Shown: piece after piece, positions 1-13,684 of the stretch | Numbering within the stretch: the first letter of the stretch is position 1 | Layout: the number at the start of each line of letters is the position of its first letter | DNA from: an uncultured Clostridia bacterium | GTDB lineage: Bacteria > Bacillota > Clostridia > Christensenellales > CAG-917 | DNA length: 64,000 nucleotides | Assembly: GCA_944358385.1 (NCBI GenBank) | Contig: CALVQW010000001.1 | Location: 124,001-188,000 of the forward strand | Direction: 5' to 3' | Notes under the pieces: generated by a model | What the model was told of the DNA's origin: nothing | The model's database searches: none | What the model saw: only the letters and a program-made list of their open reading frames with translations | Made by a program: the position numbers and the translations under genes

Positions 1-1300
1 CGATGTCCATCGCGTCCTTGGATGCGAAATGGTCGAGTGCGGAGACGATCTGCGGCGCACAATGTTCCCCCGTGCAGTAAAGGAAAGCTCCGTCCTCTTT
101 GACGGGCGCACCGCACGCGGGACAGACGCGGGGTTTTTCCACCTCTCTTGCGTCGGGAGACTGCTCCGCCACTCCCGTGATCTCCGGGATGACGTCGTTG
201 CTGCGGCGTATAAACACGCGGTCGCCTATGCGCACCTTCTTTTTGAGTATGTCGCCGTAATTGTTGAGGGTGGCGCGCTTCACGGTCACTCCCCCGATGT
301 CCACCGGGTCTAGGACGGCAAGCGGGTTGAGCTTCGCGCTTCTGGACACCTGCCAGACCACATCTCTAAGCACCGTCGTCATCTCGTCCGCCTTGAACTT
401 GTAGGCGATCGCCCATTTGGGGAACTTCTCGGTGTAGCCTATCTCGTCGCGCAACGCGGTGTCGTTCACCTTGAACACCACGCCGTCGATGAGGAAATCC
501 AGGTCGGGACGCAGCTCGTTCACCTTTTCGGCGAAGGCAAAAGCCTCCTCCGCGCCTTTCAGCACCGTGAAATCGCTCTCTGTCTCGAAGCCCTCCTCTT
601 TCAGGAACTCGTGCATCTCTCTTTGAGAAGAAAAGTGACGGTCACTGTAACCGATGTTGTATGCCATGAAGGAGAGATTGCGGGATGCGGTGACCGCGGG
701 ATCGAGGTTGCGGATGGCACCCGCCGCGCCGTTGCGCGCGTTTTTCAAAGGCTCGTCACTCACAGCGTTGTAGGCACTTAGCGCACTGAGGCGCATGATG
801 CCCTCGCCCTGGATCTCTATCCTGCCCGTATAACCTATCTTTCTCGGCACGCCCGCTATCGTACGCACCTGCGCCGTGACTTCCTCTCCCGTCACACCGT
901 CTCCGCGCGTCGCCGCCTTCACCATCTCGCCCCCCTCGTAAAGGATGTTGAGAGTGAGTCCGTCGAACTTGTATTCCGCGGTGATCTCCGGCTCTTTGCC
1001 CACCACTTTGACTATGCGGGCATACCACTCGGCGATCTCCTCCTTAGTCCTGCACTTGTCCAGGCTGTAAAGGCGGAGAAGGTGCTTGGACTGCGCAAAC
1101 TTCTTCTGCGGCGCGCCGCCCACACGGTGAGTGGGAGAATTTTTGAGGGAGTAGCCCTCCGACTCTTCCAGCGCGCGCAGCTCGTCATACAGCTTGTCAT
1201 ACTCCGCGTCGGAGACGACGGGCGCGTCCTCCTCATAGTAGAGCGCGGCATATTTGTTGAGCTTTTCCACCAGCTCTTTCATTCTGTCGTAAGCGTTCAT
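1..1300 (-). CDS. ligA: NAD-dependent DNA ligase LigA (partial, C-terminus beyond left edge)
   Basis: This enzyme seals nicks in duplex DNA using NAD+ in replication and repair. About 433 codons are present, beginning MNAYDRMKELVEKLNKY, typical of the LigA Ia domain. The adenylation motif appears as Y-K-F-D-G-L, with the active-site lysine in KxDG. Later motifs include a GAAGAIRNLDP stretch and a DGVVFKV segment, then the OB fold and the start of a four-cysteine zinc finger (CPACGAP...CTGEHC). The HhH and BRCT domains lie past base 1. The start lies 2 bp from the end of pcrA, so the two are probably co-transcribed, as is common in Firmicutes. Identification is firm; the 3' end is unseen. Confidence 0.96.
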   Translation of the reverse strand, partial: MNAYDRMKELVEKLNKYAALYYEEDAPVVSDAEYDKLYDELRALEESEGYSLKNSPTHRVGGAPQKKFAQSKHLLRLYSLDKCRTKEEIAEWYARIVKVVGKEPEITAEYKFDGLTLNILYEGGEMVKAATRGDGVTGEEVTAQVRTIAGVPRKIGYTGRIEIQGEGIMRLSALSAYNAVSDEPLKNARNGAAGAIRNLDPAVTASRNLSFMAYNIGYSDRHFSSQREMHEFLKEEGFETESDFTVLKGAEEAFAFAEKVNELRPDLDFLIDGVVFKVNDTALRDEIGYTEKFPKWAIAYKFKADEMTTVLRDVVWQVSRSAKLNPLAVLDPVDIGGVTVKRATLNNYGDILKKKVRIGDRVFIRRSNDVIPEITGVAEQSPDAREVEKPRVCPACGAPVKEDGAFLYCTGEHCAPQIVSALDHFASKDAMDI

Positions 1301-1302
1301 AT

Positions 1303-3498
1303 TCACTCCTTGACGATGCTCAGGCTGTTCACCGCTATTGCGAGGGCAAAGCGTTTGATGCCGAGTCCGTCAAATTCGATGGACGCGGTCATGCCGTCGC
1401 CCTCTCCCGCGATGTCGCGCACGACGCCGTTGCCGAAGCGGGTGTGCCGCACTTTGACACCGGGTTTGAACTCCGAAAGCGCGGGTGCGCCCGCCCTTCT
1501 CTGCGGTACGGAAACAAAGGACGCTAGCGGGTTGCGTGAGCCTGAAAACGCGGGCTTTGCCGCCGATTTCTGAGCCGCCGCCTGCACGGGCGCAAATGTC
1601 CTTACGGGAGGTTTATCCCCCTGCATTTCATATATAAACCTGCTTTTCGGGTTATTTTCCGTCCTTCCGAAGCGGAACCGTGAGCGCGTCCAGGAGACGG
1701 TGAGCCGCCGTTTTGCGCGGGTGACGGCGACGTACATCAGCCGCCTTTCCTCCTCCACGTCTCCCGACGACACCGCGTTCGCCGTGGGGAAGATGCCCTC
1801 CTCAAGCCCCACTATGAAAACGTTGTCGAATTCCAGCCCCTTGACGGCGTGGACTGTGGCAATGGTGACATAGTTTTTGTCGTCCATCTCGTCCGTGTCC
1901 GACACCAACGCCACGGACTGCATGAAGTCCGACACCGTGGCTTCCGGGTTGTCCTCAATAAAGTTGTTCACCGCGTCCACCAAGCCCTCGATGTTTTCAT
2001 AGCGGTTCCTGTCCTCGGGATCGTCGCTCATTTTAAGAGTGTTCTCAAGTCCGCTCTCTTTGATGACGAACTGCATGAAATCCTCCGGCGACATCTCGCC
2101 GAGCGCGGCAGCGATGTTGTCCGCCACCGTGAGGAATTTGGCAAATTTCTTCTCGGATGCGGGGGTGAGCAGACCGGGAGTTTTCAGCACTTCGAGGTAG
2201 GATGTGCCGTGGCGGGCAGCCATCATTGCCACTTCCGCCACCGCAGACGCGCCGATCCCCCTGCGCGGATAGTTCACGATGCGAAGGAAAGCGTCGTTGT
2301 CGCTGGGGTTTATGGCGAGCCGCACATATCCGAGAGTGTCCTTGATCTCCTTGCGCTCGAAGAATCGGAAGCCGCCGAACACCTTGTACGGGATGCCGTG
2401 CAGAGTGAACGCTTCTTCAAAGAGTCGGGTGAGGGAGTTTGCTCTCACCAGCACCGCCATATCGCGGTAGTTCTCCCCTTCCGCCACCAGCGCGGCAACG
2501 GAGCGCATCACATTGTCCGCCTCCTCTCTGTCGGAGCGCATCTCGCAGTATCTCACTTCGCTCCCGCGTCCCAGCGCGCTCCAAAGCGTCTTGGCGTTGC
2601 GGGCGGAGTTGTGCTTGATGACATTGTTGGCGGCGTCCAGTATGTTCTTGGTGCTGCGGTAGTTCTGTTCCAGCTTATACACCTTCGCGCCGGGGAACTC
2701 CGCGGGGAAATCGAGTATGTTCCTTATCTCCGCGCCCCGCCAGCTGTATATGCTCTGATCCTCGTCGCCGACGACGAACACGTTGCCCCACTTTGCGGAG
2801 AGCATCTTGACGAGCTTTAACTGCAAGCGGTTGGTGTCCTGAAACTCGTCCACGTTGATGTAGCGAAACCTGTTCTGCCAGCGTTCCAGCACGTCGGGAC
2901 AGGTCTCGAAAAGCTGAACGGTCTTGAGCAAAAGATCGTCGAAATCCATCGCATTGCTCTCTTTCAGCTCCTTCTCGTATGCGGAATAGACCAAAGTCAC
3001 CGCTTTGGCATCCTCCGTGAACTCCTTGATCTCCTCGAAATACTCCGCGGGCGAGAGAGCCGCCGTCTTTGCGCGGGAGATGTGGTTGAGATAGCTCGCC
3101 CTGCGCTTGGGATCCGCCTCACGGATGTTCTCCGTCACACGCTTCACCACCCTCTCGCTTTCGAGGTCGGTATAAATGGTGAAATCCTTGGTGTATCCCA
3201 GCCTGTCCGCGTCCTGACGCAGCATGCGCGCGCACATGGAGTGGAAAGTGCTGGTCCACACGCCCGCGCCGTCTCCGCCGAGCGCGCTCAGGATGCGGTC
3301 CTTCATCTCGTTGGCGGCTTTGTTGGTGAATGTGATGGCGAGGATGTGATAGGGATATACGCCGGAATCCACCAGCGCGCAGATGCGCGCGGTGAGCACA
3401 CGCGTCTTGCCGCTCCCCGCTCCCGCTATGACCAATATCGCGCCGTCACGGTCGTTGACGGCGAGCATTTGTTCTGGATTCAGTCCGAAATCGTGCAT
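1303..3498 (-). CDS. pcrA: UvrD/PcrA-type superfamily 1 DNA helicase
   Basis: An ATP-dependent 3'-5' helicase of 731 residues, the usual PcrA size, acting in repair and in removing proteins from DNA. Visible motifs are LNPEQ at the N-terminus, Walker A GAGSGKT (about 25-31), TFTNKAA, the DEFQDTN box, GDEDQSIYSWRGA, YRST, HAVKGLEFDNVF and VAVTRAKRRL. The C-terminus has the small PcrA-type tail (KPGVKVRHTRFGNGVV). The ATG has no Shine-Dalgarno sequence, and a promoter lies so close that the transcript would start at the ATG (see findings). It is followed directly by ligA. Confidence 0.97.
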   Translation of the reverse strand: MHDFGLNPEQMLAVNDRDGAILVIAGAGSGKTRVLTARICALVDSGVYPYHILAITFTNKAANEMKDRILSALGGDGAGVWTSTFHSMCARMLRQDADRLGYTKDFTIYTDLESERVVKRVTENIREADPKRRASYLNHISRAKTAALSPAEYFEEIKEFTEDAKAVTLVYSAYEKELKESNAMDFDDLLLKTVQLFETCPDVLERWQNRFRYINVDEFQDTNRLQLKLVKMLSAKWGNVFVVGDEDQSIYSWRGAEIRNILDFPAEFPGAKVYKLEQNYRSTKNILDAANNVIKHNSARNAKTLWSALGRGSEVRYCEMRSDREEADNVMRSVAALVAEGENYRDMAVLVRANSLTRLFEEAFTLHGIPYKVFGGFRFFERKEIKDTLGYVRLAINPSDNDAFLRIVNYPRRGIGASAVAEVAMMAARHGTSYLEVLKTPGLLTPASEKKFAKFLTVADNIAAALGEMSPEDFMQFVIKESGLENTLKMSDDPEDRNRYENIEGLVDAVNNFIEDNPEATVSDFMQSVALVSDTDEMDDKNYVTIATVHAVKGLEFDNVFIVGLEEGIFPTANAVSSGDVEEERRLMYVAVTRAKRRLTVSWTRSRFRFGRTENNPKSRFIYEMQGDKPPVRTFAPVQAAAQKSAAKPAFSGSRNPLASFVSVPQRRAGAPALSEFKPGVKVRHTRFGNGVVRDIAGEGDGMTASIEFDGLGIKRFALAIAVNSLSIVKE

Positions 3499-3504
3499 GG
3501 AAAC

Positions 3505-3533
3505 ATCTTACCACATCCCGCCCGTGATTTCAA
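3505..3533 (-). promoter_or_regulatory. Promoter of pcrA-ligA
   Basis: Read on the minus strand: TTGAAA, 17-bp spacer, TAAGAT, with an extended -10 TG one base upstream. Six bases separate the -10 from the pcrA ATG, which predicts a leaderless mRNA. Confidence 0.6.
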
Positions 3534-3633
3534 TCCGATTGAGCCGCGTAGTCAAAATCTTCTCCGCACTCCCTCAGAACGCCGCGCACGTACGTCGCGT
3601 GTAATAAAGAAAAAATTTTATTTTCAAGAGTTG

Positions 3634-3662
3634 TTGAAATATCCCCCCGCTTGTGCTAACAT
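3634..3662 (+). promoter_or_regulatory. Promoter of the DUF1508 repeat-protein gene
   Basis: TTGAAA, 17-bp spacer, TAACAT. An SD sequence GGAGG at 3681-3685 precedes the ATG at 3693. Confidence 0.65.
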
Positions 3663-3692
3663 AATTAGTGATTTATCTTCGGAGGATGAATT

Positions 3693-5282
3693 ATGGCGGA
3701 TTATCTCGACAAGTACGACGATATCGTTTTTCTTGATAGCGAAATCGTGGACGACGACCCCGACGCACCCGTCGGCGAAGCGATCACCGTAGTGGACGGT
3801 TATGTCTATCTCGACTCCGCTCTCAAAGCCGAAGCGGCGGCTAAAGCGGAGGAAGCGGAGGCTGCGAACGCGGCGGTATTCGAGGAGGCCGCTCCCGGAG
3901 AGGAAGCCCCCGCACCGACGCCCGCTCCCTACTATGAGACGGAAACTCCCGTCACGGAGGATGCTCCCGCCGAGGAGATGCCTGCCGAGGAACCCGCGGC
4001 GGATGCGGCAACACCCGCAGAGGAACTCCCCGCCCCCGATCCCGTCTATCTCTACGCATACGGCTTGACTCCCGCCGAGGACACGGCAAAGGAAACCGAA
4101 CAGACCGACGCGACACCCGTTGCCGAGGAGACGCCGGCAGCCGAGGAGGCGGCCGAGATCCCCGCAGAAGAAGCACCTGTGGCAGAAACCCCCGCGGAAG
4201 AACCCTCCCTCTATGAGACGCCTGCGGAAACACCTGCCGCCGAAGTCGCGGAGGAGGCACCCGCCGAGGATGCACCCGTCGAGGAGACTGTCCTTGCGGA
4301 GACTCCCGCAGAAGAAGCCCCCGTTGAGGAAGCTCCCGTCGCAGAGACTCCCGTTGAGGAGCCTGTAAAGAAAGCTCCCGCCCAAAAGAAGCCCGTCTCC
4401 CACCTTGTCATACAGTCTGCGGCGGATGACGGCAACGTCTGGGGCGCGGCGGTGATCAAGCCCGCCAAGAAGAAAGCCGCTCCGGCGGAAGAAAAGGCGG
4501 AGGAAAAACCCGTCGAGGAGACTCCCGCTCCCAAGAAAGCGGCAACCAAAAAGACCGCGGCAAAACCCGCCGAGTCCGATACAGCAAAGGAGGAAAAGAA
4601 AGTGGCAAAAGAAAAGGCAGCATCCAAGGACGCCAAGAAAGATAACGAAAAGGCTGCGGCAAAACCCGCAGAAAAGAAGGCTGCGGAGAAGAAAGCCTCT
4701 CCCGTAAAGAAAGAGGGAAAAGCCGCCCCCGCGAAGAAAGAGACCGCAAAGGCAGCTCCTCAGGCGAAAGCCGCTCCCAAGAAAGAGGAAAAACCCGCTC
4801 CCAAGAAAGAGGAAAAGAAGGCGGCAAAACCCGTCAAAGAGGAGACCAAACCCGCCGAACAGGTCATCGAAGCGGGCGACGATTCCGCACCGCACGGCAG
4901 GTTCGTCATCAAAAAGACGGACAAGGGCAACTTTGTCTACAAACTCTACTCCTCAAACTACAGAGTGGTCGCCATCGGCGCGGGGCTTTACACTTCCATC
5001 GCAAGCTGCAAGACGGGCATTTACAGCGTCCGCAACAATGCCGCCACCGCTCCCATCGAGGATCAGACTCTCCAGAAGTGGGAGGAGCAGAAGTTCCCCA
5101 AGTGGCAGATCTACACCGACAAGCAGGGTGAGATCCGCCTGAGACTGCTCGCCTCCAACGGCAACATCGTCGCCACCACCAATGACGGCTACCTCTCCAA
5201 AGAGGCGGCGAAGAAAGGCATCGCGGCGATAGCGCGTGCGGCGAAAGGCGCGTCCATCGTCCGCAACGACGATCTGTGGTAA
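3693..5282 (+). CDS. Low-complexity Ala/Glu/Pro/Lys-rich protein with two C-terminal DUF1508 (YegP-like) units
   Basis: A 529-residue protein of unknown function. Residues 1-45 are acidic. Residues about 45-230 are Ala/Glu/Pro-rich with many degenerate repeats of the type EETPAEEAPVAET. Residues about 270-395 switch to a strongly basic Lys/Ala/Pro segment resembling histone H1 tails. The C-terminus carries two related units (about 402-450, GRFVIKKTDKGNFVYKL; about 469-520, KWQIYTDKQGEIRLRLLASNG) that match the DUF1508 pattern, including the A-x-x-GI-x-S-V end of unit one. There is no signal peptide or membrane segment, so it is probably cytoplasmic. It has its own promoter and terminator. The charge-switched linker could contact nucleic acid or the envelope; that is inference. 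Confidence 0.85.
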   Translation: MADYLDKYDDIVFLDSEIVDDDPDAPVGEAITVVDGYVYLDSALKAEAAAKAEEAEAANAAVFEEAAPGEEAPAPTPAPYYETETPVTEDAPAEEMPAEEPAADAATPAEELPAPDPVYLYAYGLTPAEDTAKETEQTDATPVAEETPAAEEAAEIPAEEAPVAETPAEEPSLYETPAETPAAEVAEEAPAEDAPVEETVLAETPAEEAPVEEAPVAETPVEEPVKKAPAQKKPVSHLVIQSAADDGNVWGAAVIKPAKKKAAPAEEKAEEKPVEETPAPKKAATKKTAAKPAESDTAKEEKKVAKEKAASKDAKKDNEKAAAKPAEKKAAEKKASPVKKEGKAAPAKKETAKAAPQAKAAPKKEEKPAPKKEEKKAAKPVKEETKPAEQVIEAGDDSAPHGRFVIKKTDKGNFVYKLYSSNYRVVAIGAGLYTSIASCKTGIYSVRNNAATAPIEDQTLQKWEEQKFPKWQIYTDKQGEIRLRLLASNGNIVATTNDGYLSKEAAKKGIAAIARAAKGASIVRNDDLW

Positions 5283-5657
5283 ACTCCCGCCACCAAAGCG
5301 GCAGTTACTCCCCTGCCGAAGTACATAACGCGGGACGCCCCGCGTGAGAGAAAGTGCGCACTGCACAAAGCACGCAGGAGAAGATCCGAGACACTTATGA
5401 CAAACGGCATCAGCCGCAAAAGAGAAACGACCGAGCGATCGGTCGTTTCTCTTTCTTTCCTTTTCATAACTTTCGGGTGAAGTCACTTCACGAAATGATC
5501 GGCTCTCGGACGCTCCCGCCCGCATTTCGGGATATGTCGCAAACGTAGGCGGCACGGGCGGCGCATCTCTCTCCTCCCGCCCCGCATCTTTGGTGCGGTG
5601 TCACGCGCAGGAGCGATCCCGCGGCGCGCACTCTCCCCCCCCCCAAGCGGCGCAAGG
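5283..5657. other. Intergenic region between convergent genes
   Basis: It holds the hairpin terminator above and an uninterrupted run of 10 C at 5635-5644, just 3' of the zincin stop codon (G10 on that gene's strand). No further gene or structured RNA is visible. Confidence 0.5.
5421..5460 (+). terminator. Terminator after the DUF1508 gene
   Basis: Perfect 14-bp stem: AGAGAAACGACCGA pairs with TCGGTCGTTTCTCT around a GCGA loop (5421-5452). A pyrimidine-rich tail with short T runs follows. Confidence 0.6.
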
Positions 5658-6527
5658 TCATTTTATCTTGGAATAAGCTTCCTTGATGATCTTTGCCACT
5701 TCGTGCGCCAAAAGACGCGGGTAGGGCGCGGACATATACTCCGAGAAAGCCTCAGCGATGAACTCGCTCACGGATACCGTGGCGTAGCGCGAAAGCTCGG
5801 CGGCGATCCTGTCCTCTCCCCTGCTCCTCCAAAGCGCGAGGATGGCGGGGTTTGCGGAGAGGGAGCATATGGTGTCTATCATATGCCCGATCTCGTGATA
5901 GACGACGCCAGTCGCGTGTCCGCAGTTGCGGGGATGATAGCCCGTTTTCAGGTTATACTCCCAATTTTTGCAGGCATCCCGATAACCGGCGGGACCGTAA
6001 TCGCTCTCGTCAAAAATGAGCGCGTCCGCGAATCCTGCGGTGCAAATTGCACTTGCAAGTGTCCCGCCCTTTCCCGTAGATTTGCCGATGTCCCGCGCGA
6101 TCATGCCAAGAAAGCCCGCACCTTCGCTCTGCCAGACGTATTGCAGCCCAAACTCGCGTATGACTTCCTCATCCGACTCGGCAAGGCGGCGCAGACGCTC
6201 GACATAGCGTGAGTAGCTGCCAACATAGCAGAATCTCCCGCGCAGTTTGGGATAGCAGTACATCATGTGCGCGACGCACTTGACGATGACCTTGGCGGCG
6301 GCGATGTCCAGCCCGCCCATGTCGCACACGTCGCAGAGGTTGCGCTCCTTGGCTATCCACCCTATCTCGGAGAGCGAGGATGCGGCATTCAGCTTACCCA
6401 CGAGGTTGTTTTCCGTGATCAAAGGGAAGAACGTGCGGCGTTTGCGCACGTCCAACTTGTCGAACAGGGCTTGCGGTGCGGTGAAGGTCCAGGAAAAGCC
6501 CTTGTCCTTGTCGTCCTTGGGAGCCAT
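5658..6527 (-). CDS. Zincin-like metallopeptidase domain protein (HEIGH) in the vWA/kinase/PP2C operon
   Basis: A 289-residue protein, taking the ATG at 6527, which sits just past the PP2C stop and has an AAGGA SD; an in-frame upstream start would lie inside the PP2C gene. The key motif is VVYHEIGHMID (His211-Glu212, His215), an HExxH zinc site. A glutamate-rich helix downstream (EFIAEAFSEYM, about 255-265) can supply the third ligand. The motif geometry is known from gluzincin-like families; no specific family is recognised. There is no signal peptide, so it is probably cytosolic. It is the last gene of the operon, suggesting a proteolytic output or effector of the phospho-signalling module (inference). 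Confidence 0.75.
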   Translation of the reverse strand: MAPKDDKDKGFSWTFTAPQALFDKLDVRKRRTFFPLITENNLVGKLNAASSLSEIGWIAKERNLCDVCDMGGLDIAAAKVIVKCVAHMMYCYPKLRGRFCYVGSYSRYVERLRRLAESDEEVIREFGLQYVWQSEGAGFLGMIARDIGKSTGKGGTLASAICTAGFADALIFDESDYGPAGYRDACKNWEYNLKTGYHPRNCGHATGVVYHEIGHMIDTICSLSANPAILALWRSRGEDRIAAELSRYATVSVSEFIAEAFSEYMSAPYPRLLAHEVAKIIKEAYSKIK

Positions 6528-6528
6528 A

Positions 6529-8751
6529 TCAGTCCTTTTCCTCGACGTCGGATTCGACGGCACTTCTGCGCACGGAAAGGCACAGATTGCCGTATTCGGC
6601 GATGTTTTTCAGCACCTCGCGCGCCACGCGGGAGGGCGAGACCGTCTCGCGGTATATCATCCTCTCTTTGGCGAGCTGGGAGGTGTTGTACATCCCGTCC
6701 AAGGGCGTGGATCTCGACGCCTTCACCCATGTCGCGGTGTCCTGCACGAAGTTTTCCTTTTCCGCAGGCGAAAGGGAGCGGAAGAGGGCGAGGATGTTCT
6801 CCGCCATAGCTTCGGGAGAGGGAATGTCATATCTGCTCTCAAAGCTGTTGTCACGCTTGAACACGCAGCAGAAATCCTTGTAAGTGGGCAGGTGGTCAAA
6901 GAGTTTCAAGCACTCCTTCCTGTAAGCGGCGCGGAGTTTGCCGTACTTGTATATCACCTCGTTGTTATTCCTGATGAATGCCGCAAAATCGTCTATCGCC
7001 TTTTTGGTTTCCGACAAAGCTTTTTGGCACATCGCAGGATCGTCAAAGCACGCGCCGCCGTCAGGCAGATAGGTCACACGTTCGCACAAACGGGCTTTCA
7101 CGCGCTCATACTCGCCAATGAACCCCGTTTTTTCGCCGCTTGACTGCAAAACCCTCTCCGCAGCTTCCACGGCTGCGCGCTTGATTATCGTGATCTCATG
7201 CTGTTTCAGTCTCTCGTCCGTCTTGGGCAGCACGTTGTCCAGAAGTTTTTGAGGAGAGGCTACGATCTCCTCAAACACGGCAGGCTTGAAAAGCTCGTAC
7301 GCTTTGCGTCTCTTTGTTTCCAGCACCTGCTTGTCCGCAAGCTCGGAGAACTTCCGGGGAAGGGAGGCATCGGGAGACGCCACCTTCACCTGTGCAAGCT
7401 GCTCGATTATCCTGTCGAAAAGGTCGTTCGTGCGTCCGCTCACGTAGTCGGCGGTCACGCCGCGGTCAATGTCCGCGCGCACCCTGATGACCTCTCTGTT
7501 GTCGGCGAAGGCTTTACGCAGAGCGTACACCCTGTCCCTGTCCGCCGCAAGACCGCGCCGCACGTCATTAAGGTCCTTGAACCCCAGCGCGCGGAACACC
7601 ATTGTGGTGTCATCCCCTCTTACGGAATCGTAGAAATCTTTGAGTCTCTCCGCCACATCCTCGTATGTCGCCGCCTGCCTGTCGTACAGTGCGTCGAATA
7701 TGGTGGCGGGGACTTCAAAGGAGTCGTATTCGTCAAAGCAGTCGAACACGCCGTCGCTCACCGTGAGCAGCACGCACGGCAAAGGCAGTATCACCTTCCT
7801 CCTGTGCAGCACGGTGACGTCCTTGGGATCTGTCTCTCCGTTGGCGTTCCTCTTGGGGAGGAAGAACAGATTGGTGATGCCGCCGCTCCTGCTTTCGTCG
7901 TCGGTGGAAAGCAGCTGCATCCCCATACCGGGGACGAGTGCGTAGCATCTGGAATCCCCTGCCCAGATCACTTCCGCGACAAGGCGGTCTCCGGACTTGC
8001 CCGCCCCGCCCTTCTCTTTGCGGAAACGTATGGACGCGAGCGTAGTCGGCAAAAGATACTGCCCGCCGATCTTGGGCTGCTCCAATCTCAGATCATGCGC
8101 CGCGCGTTCCAGCGTACAGTTGATCGCCTCAACGGTCGCCGTCCTGTCCTCGTCGGTGATGTCGGTGTCGGGATCTTTCAAAGCCATCTCGCTCACATAT
8201 CTCACGGCGACCAACCTCGACGCCCACGCCGCGGACGTCAGAGGTGTCTCTGACATCAGATCCTCTTTGCATTTTGCGACATAAGAGCGATAGGGTGCGG
8301 CACTGTCCAGAAGCTCGTCAAGCGTGTCGCTGAGCCGGGCGGGAGAGAGATCGAGCATGTGTTTTGCGGAACCCGCTCCGCCCAGACCGTCCGCGACCAT
8401 GATGAGGTTCTCGCCGTTGAAGGGGGGCGCATCCTCACCGTGCAGAACGGAATAGAACGTGAAGGAATTTTCGATGACGGGTTCGGGCTTCACCTCGGCG
8501 GGTATCCCGCCCGCAGGCTCACTTTCGTATATCCCGACCTCTCTTTCCCTATCGGAAAACACGGCATCCCCCGCCCTTTCGTCAGCCTCCGGCACGGGGG
8601 CGGAAGGCAGGACTTTTTCGGAAGGCTCGGACATTTCCGCCACCTTTTTGTCATAAAGTGCAGCTGCAGCCTTGTGGTCGAAAGGTTTGCCGCCCTTGCC
8701 GCCGTCGGGAGCGGAAGGACGTCCATAGGACCGATCATCTTTCTTTGTCAT
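6529..8751 (-). CDS. PP2C-family Ser/Thr phosphatase with long C-terminal extension
   Basis: A 740-residue protein. After a low-complexity N-terminus (1-95) comes a PP2C domain (about 96-390). Its metal-binding motifs are VADGLGG (Asp121-Gly122), AGDSR (264-268), VSDGVFD (331-337) and GDDTT (379-383). Residues about 400-740 are charged and mostly helical, with no recognised domain. The domain should remove phosphate from Ser/Thr residues using Mn/Mg, probably those written by the adjacent kinase. Its start overlaps the kinase stop by 4 bp (ATGA), so translation is coupled. Kinase plus PP2C plus TerY-type vWA is the composition known as the TerY-P triad. Confidence 0.88.
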   Translation of the reverse strand: MTKKDDRSYGRPSAPDGGKGGKPFDHKAAAALYDKKVAEMSEPSEKVLPSAPVPEADERAGDAVFSDREREVGIYESEPAGGIPAEVKPEPVIENSFTFYSVLHGEDAPPFNGENLIMVADGLGGAGSAKHMLDLSPARLSDTLDELLDSAAPYRSYVAKCKEDLMSETPLTSAAWASRLVAVRYVSEMALKDPDTDITDEDRTATVEAINCTLERAAHDLRLEQPKIGGQYLLPTTLASIRFRKEKGGAGKSGDRLVAEVIWAGDSRCYALVPGMGMQLLSTDDESRSGGITNLFFLPKRNANGETDPKDVTVLHRRKVILPLPCVLLTVSDGVFDCFDEYDSFEVPATIFDALYDRQAATYEDVAERLKDFYDSVRGDDTTMVFRALGFKDLNDVRRGLAADRDRVYALRKAFADNREVIRVRADIDRGVTADYVSGRTNDLFDRIIEQLAQVKVASPDASLPRKFSELADKQVLETKRRKAYELFKPAVFEEIVASPQKLLDNVLPKTDERLKQHEITIIKRAAVEAAERVLQSSGEKTGFIGEYERVKARLCERVTYLPDGGACFDDPAMCQKALSETKKAIDDFAAFIRNNNEVIYKYGKLRAAYRKECLKLFDHLPTYKDFCCVFKRDNSFESRYDIPSPEAMAENILALFRSLSPAEKENFVQDTATWVKASRSTPLDGMYNTSQLAKERMIYRETVSPSRVAREVLKNIAEYGNLCLSVRRSAVESDVEEKD

Positions 8752-10325
8752 TTGATGTACCCCATGATCTTCATGTTCATGCCGCTCACGTTTTCAAGCC
8801 CGGGACGGCTCGGATCGGCAAACTCGATGGTATAGCGGTGTTCTCCGCCCACATTGACTCGTATGACGCGGGCAATGCCCGCGCTCTTCAGGCGTTCGCG
8901 GTCGAAATTGCCGTGTTCCGGCCACGGAGCATCCAACGTCAGCCCCGTTCCCGCGCCCGATGCGGACTTCTTTGTTGCAAAACCGCAGTTTATCAGGTCG
9001 TTCGCACTCGCTATGCGCGTGAGACCGTCCTCCATGACCAGCCGATAACGCTTCTTCACTCCGACCGTCACAGGATCTATCTTTGCCACTCTCGCGGCTG
9101 CCAAAGAGTCGGAGGAGGCAAATTCGATCCCGTCCTCCGGCCACGGATCGGAAAGATTCATCGTCCTGCGTTGCAGATAACCTTCGTTGCAAAGTTCCGA
9201 AAGCGTGCACGACCTTTCCTTTCCGTCCGCGAGTTTGATGAGATATCTTCTGTTGCCCACGGGAGAGGCGGAGTCGCGCCTGAAAGACTTGACGCCCTTC
9301 GCTTTGAGTTCCTCTTCCGTCGGAGTTTTGACTGCCTGATTGTGTTCCTGCCACAGTTCGCAGACGATGGCATCCGTGCTCGCGCCGCCGAATTCCGTGG
9401 GGACGTCGATCTCGTCGCTCAGCACCTTCACCACTTCCTCGGCGGTGGGGCGTTTGGCGGGATCTTTCGCCAACATCCACGTGAGCAGCGAGTAGAGATT
9501 CGCGTTGCAACGCGGACCTATCTTGGCGTCGAATTTGGGATCGAGAATGATCTTCTTGTCCTCATACACCGCCTGAGAGACCGTCACATTCTTCGCTTCG
9601 GAGGCAGGGTGCATGCCGGTGTACATCTTGTGGAAGGCGACCGCCAGCGAGAAAATGTCGCACTTGGGCGTGATGCCGCACGCGGGCATATCCTCCGTCT
9701 CGCCGTAGATCCACGTCTCCGGGCTTTGGAAACCGACAGTCCCGCCGATGTCCAGCCCTTCCGGGATGTCCGTAGTGCAATATGCGCCGTCAAAGTCGAT
9801 GAGATAGCTCTCATACCTGCCGCCCGATGTCTTGACCACCGTAAAGTTGGAGTCCTTGATGTCGCCGTGTATGACTCCCCTTCTGTGCGTCTCTTGAAGA
9901 GCCTTCGCACACCAGCGGGCAAGCTCCGTGAACTGCGCCACGGAGAGCGCGGCATAGGACTGCGAACCGGGCAACGCGCCCTCTATGAGCGGCGAGACAA
10001 AGACGAAACGGTTGTCCGCGTCCCAGAACACATGGGTGTCTGGCGCGGCGTGAGTGACCGTCCAATCGTTGCCGGAAAAGGCGGCGTGTATCTTTTTCAC
10101 CGCTCTTTCGGCAGCGTCCGCCTTAGCCTTATATTTGTCGAACGTGGCTTTGGGGAGAGACTTGTCGGGATAGCGCAATGTGTCTCCTCTTTTTATGAAG
10201 AAACGTGTCTTGCGCCCTCCCACCGTCTTTGACGCGAAGATATATTCGCCGTTGTTGGCGCGTTTCCAGCGAATGTTCCCGTCCTCCAAAAAGGCGGGAT
10301 CCACCTCATATCCGTTGTAAATCAT
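8748..10325 (-). CDS. Ser/Thr protein kinase with C-terminal tandem repeats
   Basis: A 525-residue protein. The kinase domain (about 15-310) shows the ATP-binding lysine in RFFIKR (Lys45), the catalytic loop HGDIKDSN (Asp155, Asn160), a metal site LIDFDGAY (Asp177, DFD instead of DFG), and the activation-segment end GTVGFQSPE. No clear glycine-rich loop is seen, as in other divergent TerY-associated kinases. Residues about 340-525 hold three related modules of about 60 residues; the first two end SDPWPEDG and DAPWPEHG and contain RRYLIKLADG and KRYRLVMEDG, and the third has HRYTIEFADP. It lacks a transmembrane segment. It sits between the vWA genes and PP2C, with 18 bp to the vWA gene upstream. 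Confidence 0.9.
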   Translation of the reverse strand: MIYNGYEVDPAFLEDGNIRWKRANNGEYIFASKTVGGRKTRFFIKRGDTLRYPDKSLPKATFDKYKAKADAAERAVKKIHAAFSGNDWTVTHAAPDTHVFWDADNRFVFVSPLIEGALPGSQSYAALSVAQFTELARWCAKALQETHRRGVIHGDIKDSNFTVVKTSGGRYESYLIDFDGAYCTTDIPEGLDIGGTVGFQSPETWIYGETEDMPACGITPKCDIFSLAVAFHKMYTGMHPASEAKNVTVSQAVYEDKKIILDPKFDAKIGPRCNANLYSLLTWMLAKDPAKRPTAEEVVKVLSDEIDVPTEFGGASTDAIVCELWQEHNQAVKTPTEEELKAKGVKSFRRDSASPVGNRRYLIKLADGKERSCTLSELCNEGYLQRRTMNLSDPWPEDGIEFASSDSLAAARVAKIDPVTVGVKKRYRLVMEDGLTRIASANDLINCGFATKKSASGAGTGLTLDAPWPEHGNFDRERLKSAGIARVIRVNVGGEHRYTIEFADPSRPGLENVSGMNMKIMGYIK

Positions 10326-10343
10326 GTTTTTTGCCTTTTCCTG

Positions 10344-11051
10344 TCAGCGACTTGAGATCGAGGAGCTGATCGTATGCGCGATCGTGTCGAAGGAGACGTC
10401 GCTGAGTCCGTTGTGTATCTCCACCGGGATGAACATGCAATTGTCGTACTGATCGCCCATATCCTTATACTCGCTGTTTTCGGGCGCGAAAAGAATGAGC
10501 CTTCTGCCCCTGTAAGAGAGCGAAGTGCCGTATTCCTGCCCGCACGTCCACATGTCGAGCAACCCGTTGGCATCCGGCATCCCCTTGGGATAGAAAGAAT
10601 AGTTGCTCCTCTTCAATGCGGGGATGGGAGGGGTGTCCGCGAAGATGACTATTATCTGCCTGTCCTTCGCTCCCGTCGCCACGAAGTCGGACTTCATCGC
10701 AAGATAGAACGCTTCCAGCCCGTTCGCGTCCTCGCCGCAGCCGCCCGTTGCCCTGATGCCCGCAAGGTAAGCCGACACCTCCGCCTTCTCGTTGGGCAGC
10801 TCGAAAAATCTGCTCATCACCATCGACTGCTCTCCGTCGCTCTTGTAGTCGCGGAAAGTGATGAACTTGATGCGGAGGATCTCCACGACGGAATTGCCTC
10901 CCTTCTCAAGATCCGCATTGATGGTCTCGTAAAGTCTGATAATGTTGGTCTTGACGTTGTCGATGCAACCCGCCATGCTGCCCGTGCCGTCAATGCACAT
11001 GACGATGTCCACACGCCTTCCGACAGCGTTCCCGTATGCCATCCCCGACAT
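10344..11051 (-). CDS. TerY-like vWA domain protein (second copy)
   Basis: A 235-residue protein that is almost entirely a von Willebrand factor A domain. The MIDAS metal site begins VDIVMCIDGTGSM (Asp21, Thr23, Ser25). Other features are a conserved FRDY and a GGCGEDANGLEA stretch that supplies further MIDAS residues. It is clearly a paralogue of the next gene (shared CIDGTGSM, FRDY, SRFFELP/TRFFELN, DRQIIV/DRQIII). Such proteins act as metal-dependent protein-binding adaptors. The ATG has a GGGGG SD. A role as scaffold or substrate for the kinase/phosphatase pair is inference. Confidence 0.9.
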   Translation of the reverse strand: MSGMAYGNAVGRRVDIVMCIDGTGSMAGCIDNVKTNIIRLYETINADLEKGGNSVVEILRIKFITFRDYKSDGEQSMVMSRFFELPNEKAEVSAYLAGIRATGGCGEDANGLEAFYLAMKSDFVATGAKDRQIIVIFADTPPIPALKRSNYSFYPKGMPDANGLLDMWTCGQEYGTSLSYRGRRLILFAPENSEYKDMGDQYDNCMFIPVEIHNGLSDVSFDTIAHTISSSISSR

Positions 11052-11085
11052 AAATTACCCCCTGTGTTCAAAAAATTTATCGTTC

Positions 11086-11126
11086 GCAAAACCCGCCGCC
11101 CCGCCCGTTTAGCGGGCGAGGCAGCG
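11086..11126 (-). other. Intercistronic GC-rich hairpin between the two vWA genes
   Basis: CGCCCGC and GCGGGCG pair around TAAA (+ strand near 11100-11117) inside a C/G-rich block. There is no T run, so it is more likely an mRNA-stability or attenuation element than a full terminator. Confidence 0.3.
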
Positions 11127-11149
11127 GAGTCCTTCGTGTTTTGCCGCGA

Positions 11150-11863
11150 TCACTTGCTGCTCGCGGAAGCGGCGATGATCTTGATGACTGCGCTGAAATC
11201 GATCTCGGAGAGACCGTCCTCGGGACGAGTGGGCACAAAGATCATCCTTTCCATGACTTTAGAAAGATCATCATACTTGGTGCCTTCGGGAGCGTAAACG
11301 ATCATCCTTCTGATGCGCTCGCTGAGCTTTATGGAAGCATCCTGGCTCGCGCACGCCCAAAGATTGATGAGACCGTCGTGGTCCACCATGTCGGCGGGAT
11401 AGCCGTCGCAGCCCGCTCTCTCTTTCAGTTCCAGGGCGTCCGCATCCGTGAAGAGGATGATGATCTGCCTGTCATCGCGTCCGGTGACGAAATCGGACGT
11501 CATTGCGTAATAGAGAGCTTCCAGACCGTTTTCGGGCTTGTCGCCGCCGCCCTGCGCCTTGATGTCTGCGAGTGCCTTTTCAAACTCGACGCGATCCATA
11601 TCGGTGTTAAGCTCGAAAAATCTGGTTTGGCTGATCGCATCCGCGCCCTCTTTGTCGTAGTCTCTGAACACGATGATCTTTATGCGCAGCATGTCGATCT
11701 CGGTGTTGTTGTTCGTCAGCATTTCCGCGGCGAGGTTCTGATAGAAGCGTTCCGCATTCTTTTTGACGGTATCAAGATAGGGAGACATACTGCCCGTGCC
11801 GTCGATGCACATGACGATGTCTAGCTTGCGATGTTTTTTGGTTTCGTTTGCCGAATCGGACAT
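11150..11863 (-). CDS. TerY-like vWA domain protein (first gene of the operon)
   Basis: A 237-residue vWA protein with MIDAS motif LDIVMCIDGTGSM (Asp21, Thr23, Ser25), FRDYDKEG, and GGGDKPENGLEA for the distal metal ligands. It belongs to the TerY-like group of small stand-alone vWA proteins found with kinase and PP2C genes. It is first in the operon, behind a near-consensus promoter and a GGAGGAAATT SD. No signal peptide is present, so the protein is cytosolic. With the second vWA gene it forms a duplicated adaptor pair, which could give two substrate specificities (inference). Confidence 0.9.
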   Translation of the reverse strand: MSDSANETKKHRKLDIVMCIDGTGSMSPYLDTVKKNAERFYQNLAAEMLTNNNTEIDMLRIKIIVFRDYDKEGADAISQTRFFELNTDMDRVEFEKALADIKAQGGGDKPENGLEALYYAMTSDFVTGRDDRQIIILFTDADALELKERAGCDGYPADMVDHDGLINLWACASQDASIKLSERIRRMIVYAPEGTKYDDLSKVMERMIFVPTRPEDGLSEIDFSAVIKIIAASASSK

Positions 11864-11938: not shown

Positions 11939-11967
11939 AGTATAGCATCCCCCACCCTGTATGTCAA
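11939..11967 (-). promoter_or_regulatory. Strong promoter of the vWA-kinase-PP2C-zincin operon
   Basis: Minus strand TTGACA, 17-bp spacer, TATACT: a full-consensus -35 and 5/6 -10. The predicted start near 11932 gives a leader of about 70 nt. Confidence 0.75.
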
Positions 11968-11996: not shown

Positions 11997-12521
11997 CTAA
12001 TGTTTAGCTCGGCCTCCTCCGCGGTTAAACACGTTCAAGATCTCTTTCTTCTTAAATACGGCATAATCGTATGCGACTTTGGTGCCGCTTTTCGGTTGAA
12101 AAGAAAAGATCCCTTTCCCGTTTGTAGGTTTAAAGGGCGGTTGATAGTTTACGTTATAATAGAAAATGCAGAGGTCTGCCCTGTCTATCATATGGTAATT
12201 GCGCTCGACATAAGCCGCTTTGCCCGCATCGGCAACATTCTCAGGGATATAAGTGGCGTCGTAAGATCCGAGCAAATAGTTTTCGTAATCCTTATTGATG
12301 TAAGGGTATTCGGCTCGGACATATACTCGTTTTATATTGGGGCGTTCCTTTTGGATCTCGCTCACGACTTCAAGACACAAGTCATTGAAATCACTTCTGC
12401 TGCCAAACAAAAAGGTATCGGCGTTTCTGTCGTCTATCAGAGAGAGGAGCAGCTCTTTTAATTGCAGGCGGAAGCTGCTGTCAAATCGTAGCTCTCGATG
12501 CCCTATAAAGGTAACTATCAT
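11997..12521 (-). CDS. SLOG-like (Rossmann nucleotide-sensor) protein
   Basis: A 174-residue protein starting MIVTFIGHREL, the N-terminal strand and G-H-R signature of small DUF1273/SLOG-type proteins, followed by a GSRSDFNDL segment that resembles the family's nucleotide-binding loop. The C-terminal half contains DRADLCIFYYN and SGTKVAYDYAVFKKKEI, typical of a Rossmann-like fold binding a nucleotide ligand. The gene is more AT-rich than its neighbours. It lies upstream of the vWA operon on the same strand and divergent from an XRE regulator. A ligand-sensing role feeding the phospho-signalling operon is inference; it may be independent. Confidence 0.75.
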   Translation of the reverse strand: MIVTFIGHRELRFDSSFRLQLKELLLSLIDDRNADTFLFGSRSDFNDLCLEVVSEIQKERPNIKRVYVRAEYPYINKDYENYLLGSYDATYIPENVADAGKAAYVERNYHMIDRADLCIFYYNVNYQPPFKPTNGKGIFSFQPKSGTKVAYDYAVFKKKEILNVFNRGGGRAKH

Positions 12522-12649: not shown

Positions 12650-12889
12650 ATGCTTTTGGAGGATGCGGTTGCGTTGCGCATTGAGCAACTGTGCATAGAA
12701 CGGAAAATGACCAAATACGAATTGTCCGAGCGGAGCGGAGTTCCGCAAACGACATTATCTTCCATCAAGAAGAAAAGAAGCACCTCTGTCAAGTTGAAGA
12801 CATTATACGCGATATGTGAAGGCTTCGACATGAGTTTTGAGGAGTTCTTCGCCTCTCCGTTGTTTGACAGAAACACTTTGCACGATTGA
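12650..12889 (+). CDS. Small XRE/Cro-CI family helix-turn-helix regulator
   Basis: A 79-residue protein that is one HTH_3 domain: RIEQLCIERKMTKYELSERSG, then VPQTTLSSIKKKR as recognition helix, and TLYAICEGFDMSFEEFF, the classic Cro/CI tail. Proteins of this exact size are common in Firmicutes. It is transcribed divergently from the SLOG-like gene with a 128-bp shared upstream region containing a TTATAT -10-like element. It probably represses itself and perhaps the SLOG gene (inference). AT-rich composition suggests transfer with that gene. Confidence 0.88.
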   Translation: MLLEDAVALRIEQLCIERKMTKYELSERSGVPQTTLSSIKKKRSTSVKLKTLYAICEGFDMSFEEFFASPLFDRNTLHD

Positions 12890-13300: not shown

Positions 13301-13612
13301 GCAGGCAAACCGGGGTCCCCGCAAAGTACCGCAGCGCAGCTCCTCTGCCAAAGCATTTTTGATGATGTTAAAGCGAGGACACTTTGTGGGGTATCATGGC
13401 GAAAGCGTCTTGCTGCGCAAGCCGCCGAACCTCGCCGCACTATTTTCTGCAACTTTTCAAATTTAACGATGAGAACACAAAAAAACATTTTAACAATGTT
13501 TGCATTTGCGCCGTGGTTCGCATCCCGTATTCCTCCTCCGCCACAGCAAAAAAAATGCGCACCCACGCTGTGGGTTCGCATTTTTCTGCTGTGGCGGAGG
13601 AGGAGGGATTCG
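13301..13612 (+). repeat. 312-bp tandem repeat, copy 2 (abuts tRNA-Ser)
   Basis: Copy 2 of the element. The conserved 5' block is 13301-13429, the divergent centre is 13430-13530, and the 3' block is 13531-13582. It runs into the 3' end of tRNA-Ser, making an inverted repeat: CCTCCTCCGCCACAGC on the left and GCTGTGGCGGAGGAGG on the right, around a terminator hairpin. An open frame crosses both copies in phase because 312 is divisible by 3, but it is probably not coding. Confidence 0.75.
13547..13582 (-). terminator. Terminator of tRNA-Ser (inside the repeat)
   Basis: On the minus strand, ATGCGaACCCAC and GTGGGTgCGCAT form a stem around a 3-nt loop, followed by eight T. The same hairpin recurs in repeat copy 1 without a tRNA. 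Confidence 0.7.
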
Positions 13613-13684
13613 AACCCTCGAACCGCTTTTGACGGTTACACGATTTCCAGTCGTGCGCCCTCGACCAAACTAGGCGACTCCTCC
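13592..13684 (-). tRNA. tRNA-Ser (anticodon GGA)
   Basis: A 93-nt class II tRNA including an encoded CCA. The acceptor stem GGAGGAG pairs with CTCCTCC, with G73 as discriminator. The anticodon arm CGACTGGAAATCGTG reads GGA. A long variable arm (CCGTCAAAAGCGG) and T-arm GAGGGTTCGAATCCCTC are visible. It reads UCC/UCU codons. Its 3' end is duplicated in the adjacent repeat. Confidence 0.95.

Follow-up and report, generated by a model that had tools for sequence, protein, structure and literature searches.

TerY-P triads combine a vWA protein, a Ser/Thr kinase and a PP2C phosphatase, and have been reported to act against phages (PMC10889362, PMC7699616, PMC11090510); the pertinent passages of these papers do not state what the triads target. 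In the sections concerned, one of the papers (PMC11090510) describes a TerY-P kinase fused C-terminally to a zinc ribbon, cites Gao 2020 for an OB-fold at the kinase C-terminus of TerY-P-like modules, and reports that CoCoNuT systems of types II and III-A often carry TerY-P triads, some of type III-A with two unlike vWA genes. Its main text does not contain the word 'protease' and mentions only a signal peptidase. Likewise, no paper linking a TerY-P triad to a zincin was found in the literature searched, in which the 2012 paper defining TerY-P and Gao 2020 were represented through papers citing them. Here we describe an operon of an uncultured Clostridia bacterium, located at positions 5658-11863 of the minus strand of a 64,000-nucleotide stretch of contig CALVQW010000001.1 (the window), in which two vWA genes (vWA-A and vWA-B), a kinase, a PP2C-like phosphatase and a zincin metallopeptidase follow one another in the order of transcription. 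On the best reading, the TerY-P module is present here in a new, zincin-bearing variant.

The operon shares with TerY-P triads the three protein classes, the PP2C being assigned from its motifs and relatives, and differs from them in that the kinase carries repeats of about 60 residues in place of a zinc ribbon, that a zincin resembling lethal factor and PPEP peptidases (LF/PPEP-like) is added, and that TerD is absent from the assembly. The initial annotation of a TerY-P-like triad holds for the three classes in one operon and for the link to the zincin, with the qualification that the kinase has no C-terminal zinc ribbon. With CoCoNuT types II and III-A the operon has the triad in common, and with some type III-A systems also the two unlike vWA genes; conversely, a McrBC/CnuHE-type gene was not recognised by eye among the neighbours in the window, no systematic search having been made.

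Recurrence of the zincin with the triad

A scan of one genome per species across 84,980 species yielded 15 loci that encode relatives of the zincin (loci are denoted L and genomes G). A PP2C of the window type was present in the cluster at 13 of these, all titled as Clostridia-type metagenome-assembled genomes, and two of the 13 (L068 and L075) had been in the query alignment. The PP2C gene abuts or overlaps the zincin gene in 11 of the 15 loci (L068-L075 and L077-L079), overlapping genes thus being found in relatives, and lies about 0.4 kb from it in L076; in L080 the zincin stands upstream of vWA-vWA-kinase-PP2C. A kinase was seen at ten of the 13 loci and vWA genes at eight, with L074, L076, L078 and L079 cut at their start and neither gene found within 8 kb upstream in L077. 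In L081 and L082 the zincin was present and the triad was not seen. These neighbourhoods answer in the affirmative the question, raised in the initial annotation, of whether the zincin recurs with the triad. The zincin ends the operon in the window, as had been noted, but is not always last in related operons.

Within the order, the window zincin used alone as query matched four of 200 genomes, three of which hold the triad (G102 does not), and the window PP2C alone matched 11 of the 200. Apart from the operon's own genome, the best two PP2C matches were G076 and G016; both recur among the three non-own zincin matches, with PP2C and zincin in the same operons. When a PP2C profile was run over 396 genomes of the order, the protein was found in 28, and among the ten with the closest PP2C (E <= 1e-100) eight have a zincin in the operon (G611, G746, G696, G076, G000, G681, G016 and G614, the last seen in L080); G671 has none within 20 kb, and G581 is cut at 6.2 kb. 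The ranking favours zincin loci because the profile was built from the PP2Cs of such loci, and the count of eight in ten is partly circular, since five of the eight (G000, G611, G746, G076 and G614) were in the profile. The five close genomes outside it comprise three with a zincin (G696, G681 and G016), one without (G671) and one cut (G581). No zincin was found in the 18 genomes with a more distant PP2C, in stretches that covered 1.5-kb flanks (five genomes) or a wider region up to the whole contig (13 genomes). At the level of the genus, three of ten genomes have a matching PP2C, and the zincin was found in none of the five other members searched.

Gene order and phylogeny point the same way. 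In the zincin-bearing operons the kinase precedes the PP2C wherever a kinase was seen, and in the 18-genome group the PP2C precedes the kinase in 12 of 14 mapped loci (L028 and L159 being the exceptions); G671 shows the zincin-type gene order without a zincin. On a PP2C tree the presence of the zincin requires 3 changes as against 8.8 in shuffles, none of 500 shuffles being as low. This tree has 27 rows, obtained from 40 PP2C hits after 11 were dropped for not matching the motif pattern and two as copies on one contig; most rows came out of the zincin search, L157, which is a cut locus, was counted as zincin-free, and the window row sits on a long branch with an unsure placement. Taken together, the genome counts, the gene order and the tree indicate that the zincin is the mark of one sub-lineage of triads rather than a general component of them (8 of the 28 PP2C genomes, all among the ten closest). 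The recurrence in related genomes also makes the five-gene arrangement more than a matter of chance.

In other searches with the zincin, the single sequence retrieved one near-identical relative among 2663 scored protein candidates, and the alignment retrieved eight relatives among 7998 candidates, including one that the alignment itself contained; as both searches require shared exact words, they may overlook relatives at a greater distance. A class-wide search of 391 genomes gave matches in 5, of which three were weak and partial.

Several zincin loci have features of their own. In L078 (11228-12064) and L079 (11189-12064) the zincin occurs again some 7-8 kb downstream of the first copy; between the two copies in L079 lies a gene for a TraG-type coupling ATPase of type IV secretion systems (7636-9294, E 3.4e-35). 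This double-zincin region is possibly a mobile element. L031 (2832-6955, genome G102) has no triad; its zincin is divergent and is followed by a 312-residue and a 797-residue protein, the latter with a weak Pkinase match below the cut-off (E 0.0012). Just upstream of the zincin-triad operon in L080 lies an open frame of 3092 residues (81-9359) for which no Pfam match exceeds the cut-off.

Components of the operon

All five open reading frames were found on the minus strand behind a single near-consensus promoter, as initially annotated (Table 1). The promoter matches the consensus at 11 of 12 positions and is the best of six promoter-like sites in the region, the shuffled region having a mean of 4.6 such sites. 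The tight spacing given in the initial annotation (1-98 bp) was likewise recovered, with gaps of 98 bp between vWA-A and vWA-B and 18 bp between vWA-B and the kinase, a 4-bp overlap of kinase and PP2C, and a 1-bp gap from the PP2C stop to the zincin when the latter starts at ATG 6527. This is the more likely start, because a near-identical database copy (P0007) begins there. The 98-nt gap forms a hairpin of -43.7 kcal/mol (z -4.99), equalled in none of 200 shuffles; given its strength, vWA-A could be produced in excess, and the hairpin might tune the expression of the downstream genes. The GC content is 55-60% across most of the operon and 52% at its 5' end. These values match the flanks, and the GC content thus gives no sign that the operon is foreign.

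Table 1. Features of the operon, its surroundings and the corresponding site in a genome of the same genus (window positions unless a locus is given)
Feature	Position	Strand	Details
vWA-A (TerY-like vWA protein)	11150..11863	-	237 aa; VWA_4 E 1.1e-10
vWA-B (second, distinct vWA class)	10344..11051	-	235 aa; below Pfam cut-off
Ser/Thr-type kinase	8748..10325	-	525 aa; Pkinase E 4.7e-19
PP2C-like phosphatase, C-terminal half long and variable	6529..8751	-	740 aa; assigned by motifs
Zincin metallopeptidase, LF/PPEP-like	5658..6563	-	301 aa from GTG; likely ATG 6527, 289 aa
Sigma-70-like promoter	11939..11967	-	TTGACA-17-TATACT, TG preceding second hexamer; shortly upstream of vWA-A
Gap with GC-rich hairpin, vWA-A/vWA-B	11052..11149	-	98 nt
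SLOG/YpsA-like small protein, upstream of promoter	11997..12521	-	YpsA E 0.056, below cut-off; candidate member of the system
XRE-type helix-turn-helix (HTH) protein, divergent, possible regulator	12650..12889	+	79 aa; HTH_26 E 2.8e-13
tRNA-Ser(gga)	13592..13684	-	operon on 3' side of tRNA
GmrSD-type restriction gene in G128	L114 5093-6922		GmrSD_N E 4.2e-31

The zincin contains HEIGH at residues 223-227, and H223, E224, H227, Y260 and E267 are invariant in 21 zincins including that of the window, the I of HEIGH being variable. Aligned to lethal factor, it shows the arrangement of lethal-factor and PPEP peptidases, namely HEXXH followed by a Tyr and a Glu seven residues apart. Its predicted fold, that of anthrax lethal factor and PPEP, agrees with this assignment. 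It differs from these zincins (Pfam ATLF; peptidase family M34) in scoring below the curated ATLF cut-off (14.2 vs 27.4 bits), in lacking a secretion signal by eye, and in being encoded in a kinase/phosphatase operon. The lack of an evident signal peptide makes it likely that the protein acts inside the cell. Its wider relatives, both in sequence and in predicted fold, are zincins of phage capsids, of the MuF and minor-capsid types; unlike those, the window zincin (289-301 residues, depending on the start) is a free-standing protein, without a MuF or minor-capsid match in Pfam.

The PP2C-like protein has no PP2C match of its own in Pfam but keeps the PP2C-type motifs ED, DGLGG, GDSR, SDG and DD. 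E106, D107, D121, D266, D333, D380 and D381 are invariant in ten PP2Cs, and some of its 82 database matches carry PF13672. A search of the PDB with a profile of the family returned mostly helical chance matches; PstP, a phosphatase, scored E 0.02. The PF00481 match found elsewhere in the assembly belongs to a separate protein of 767 residues, by eye a membrane phosphatase of the SpoIIE type, and was set aside as lying outside the system.

In the kinase, K45, D155, N160 and D177 are invariant among ten kinases. Its C-terminus consists of three repeats of about 60 residues (323-385, 393-451 and 466-525) that form small alpha/beta units in the structure model, and a profile of the repeat built from the ten kinases recognises 27 of the 30 kinase-type hits in the mapped loci, in part weakly, with L022 and L075 representing a single contig. 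The repeat also occurs at the N-terminus of one PP2C (L076). With no CxxC pair in the window kinase, and hence no C-terminal zinc ribbon, the repeats occupy the place of the zinc ribbon or OB-fold reported for TerY-P kinases. The 50 Foldseek matches listed were all kinases, for a query that was the whole kinase and not the repeats alone. Kinase labels from PADLOC and NCBIfam (MAD6, PD-T4-6 and others) were rejected as generic kinase matches, the NCBIfam scores being far under the cut-off.

The two vWA proteins are 41% identical to each other. For vWA-A, the identity to the vWA proteins of L068, L071 and L075 is 55-57% with the first copies and 45-48% with the second; for vWA-B the corresponding figures are 41-42% and 53-54%. 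Judged from these identities, vWA-A and vWA-B are an old pair whose order has been kept in the three operons. The vWA gene is present twice, as initially annotated, but not through a local doubling. A single vWA gene was seen in L069 and L072, and one gene plus a short piece in L070. D21, T23, S25 and D140 are invariant across 13 vWA proteins, giving a D-x-T-x-S motif followed by D140 as in a metal-ion-dependent adhesion site (MIDAS). The metal site of TerY-P vWA proteins is thereby predicted for these proteins as well, with the middle Thr of the motif not identified.

Genomic site and neighbouring genes

A SLOG/YpsA-like gene and an XRE-type HTH gene, in a stretch richer in AT (GC 43-46%), sit between the operon and tRNA-Ser, the only Rfam feature found. 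In G128, of the same genus, a DUF1508-type gene and tRNA-Ser enclose one clear gene, which is of the GmrSD_N restriction type. In G166, also of the genus, a serine recombinase and an N6_N4 DNA methylase gene stand beside tRNA-Ser (L123 2961-6494), the other flank being rearranged, and in G189 no comparable cargo was seen by eye after tRNA-Ser. It is possible that defence genes have a hotspot at this tRNA-Ser. On the far side of the operon, adjoining the island, window positions 3693-5282 encode a 529-residue protein that is rich in Ala, Pro and Glu in its first part and has two DUF1508 stretches, and similar DNA is found in four genomes of the same genus.

Related operons have neighbours of several kinds. 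A TIR-LRR protein is encoded directly downstream of the zincin in L072 (10999-12852), with relatives of 60-65% identity in the same place in L069 (10972-12783) and L070 (11025-12108), and L069 has a STAND-type NTPase-LRR gene upstream (2285-4972). Other neighbours include DUF4231 proteins, which weakly resemble SLATT proteins, a protein of the FGE-sulfatase type that matches NACHT weakly, and an AAA protein that is CbbX-like by eye. AAA-M41 proteins occur near four triads (L068 11307-14432, L069 15246-18098, L025 2163-5690 and L163 10338-13820), the C-terminal M41 peptidase being assigned by Pfam in three and by BLAST in L069. The AAA-M41 proteins represent a further type of protease associated with the triad, whether or not the zincin is present. 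The absence of TerD near the operon, pointed out in the initial annotation, extends to the whole assembly (96.5% complete), where no match was found; however, TerD genes lie near four related triads (L024 4902-5810, L030 10519-11490, L158 3213-4121 and L161 14469-15413), that of L161 also carrying a TerY_C metal-binding domain.

Possible function of the zincin-bearing triad

The preferred reading, held at about even odds, is that the operon works as a phosphorylation-gated defence switch with intracellular proteolysis as its predicted output. By analogy, phage defence would be its leading purpose, because published TerY-P systems protect against phages. In such a switch the vWA pair and the C-terminal repeats of the kinase would recognise a signal of infection or stress, upon which the kinase would phosphorylate the zincin or a protein masking it; in healthy cells the phosphatase would keep the switch in the off state. 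Once freed, the zincin would cut a cytoplasmic protein, be it of the host, of the phage or a neighbouring effector, and thereby halt phage growth. The order put forward in the initial annotation, with vWA as sensor or adaptor, the kinase as writer, the PP2C as eraser and the protease as output, is likewise an inference. Counted in favour of the defence switch were the recurrence, the tight junctions, the conserved residues of catalytic type, the GmrSD_N gene at the tRNA-Ser site and the conflict-type neighbours. A more far-reaching version, in which bacteria captured a zincin of phage capsid type as the proteolytic arm of an immune switch run by kinase and phosphatase, with two specialised vWA sensors, and in which the new repeat domain of the kinase reads the infection signal and can pass it to neighbouring TIR, STAND or AAA-M41 effectors, is unlikely.

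The main rival, which we consider unlikely, is a phospho-relay for metal or envelope stress, as proposed for Ter-linked triads, in which the zincin would degrade damaged or regulatory proteins. The TerD genes and the AAA-M41 proteases, each near four triads, are in keeping with it, as is the metal binding suggested by the MIDAS-type residues of the vWA sequences. Conversely, TerD is missing from this assembly, the patchy distribution of both PP2C and zincin within the genus does not favour such a relay, and neither does the restriction gene that occupies the same tRNA-Ser site in G128. The conflict-type neighbours of the relatives could also be outputs in their own right, the zincin then being a regulator within the switch that cleaves the repeats of the kinase, the long tail of the PP2C or one of the vWA proteins and so makes a reversible phospho-switch irreversible, with the output elsewhere (for example in TIR/STAND proteins or host targets). 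Long accessory parts that might be cut are available in the C-terminal half of the PP2C and in the kinase repeats, and the relevant part of PMC5512222 proposes that zincin-like peptidases process multidomain conflict proteins (phages and plasmids). Yet no output gene is evident by eye in the window between the DUF1508 gene and tRNA-Ser, and no cleavage site is known; a regulatory role is accordingly held to be improbable. Finally, its kinship with phage minor-capsid zincins and the existence of zincins without a triad would also be expected of a captured capsid-type zincin that merely rides on a TerY-P-like operon with no functional link. This is very unlikely, as the coupling of the zincin to one sub-lineage of triads extends over several families of the order, the gene occupies two different positions and the active site is conserved.

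The sub-lineage of triads that bears the zincin offers a concrete predicted output, and the substrate of the zincin may reveal the purpose of the triad. The defence switch, if true, would bring reversible phosphorylation and proteolysis together within bacterial immunity, and would suggest that an enzyme associated with phage capsids has been recruited against phages.

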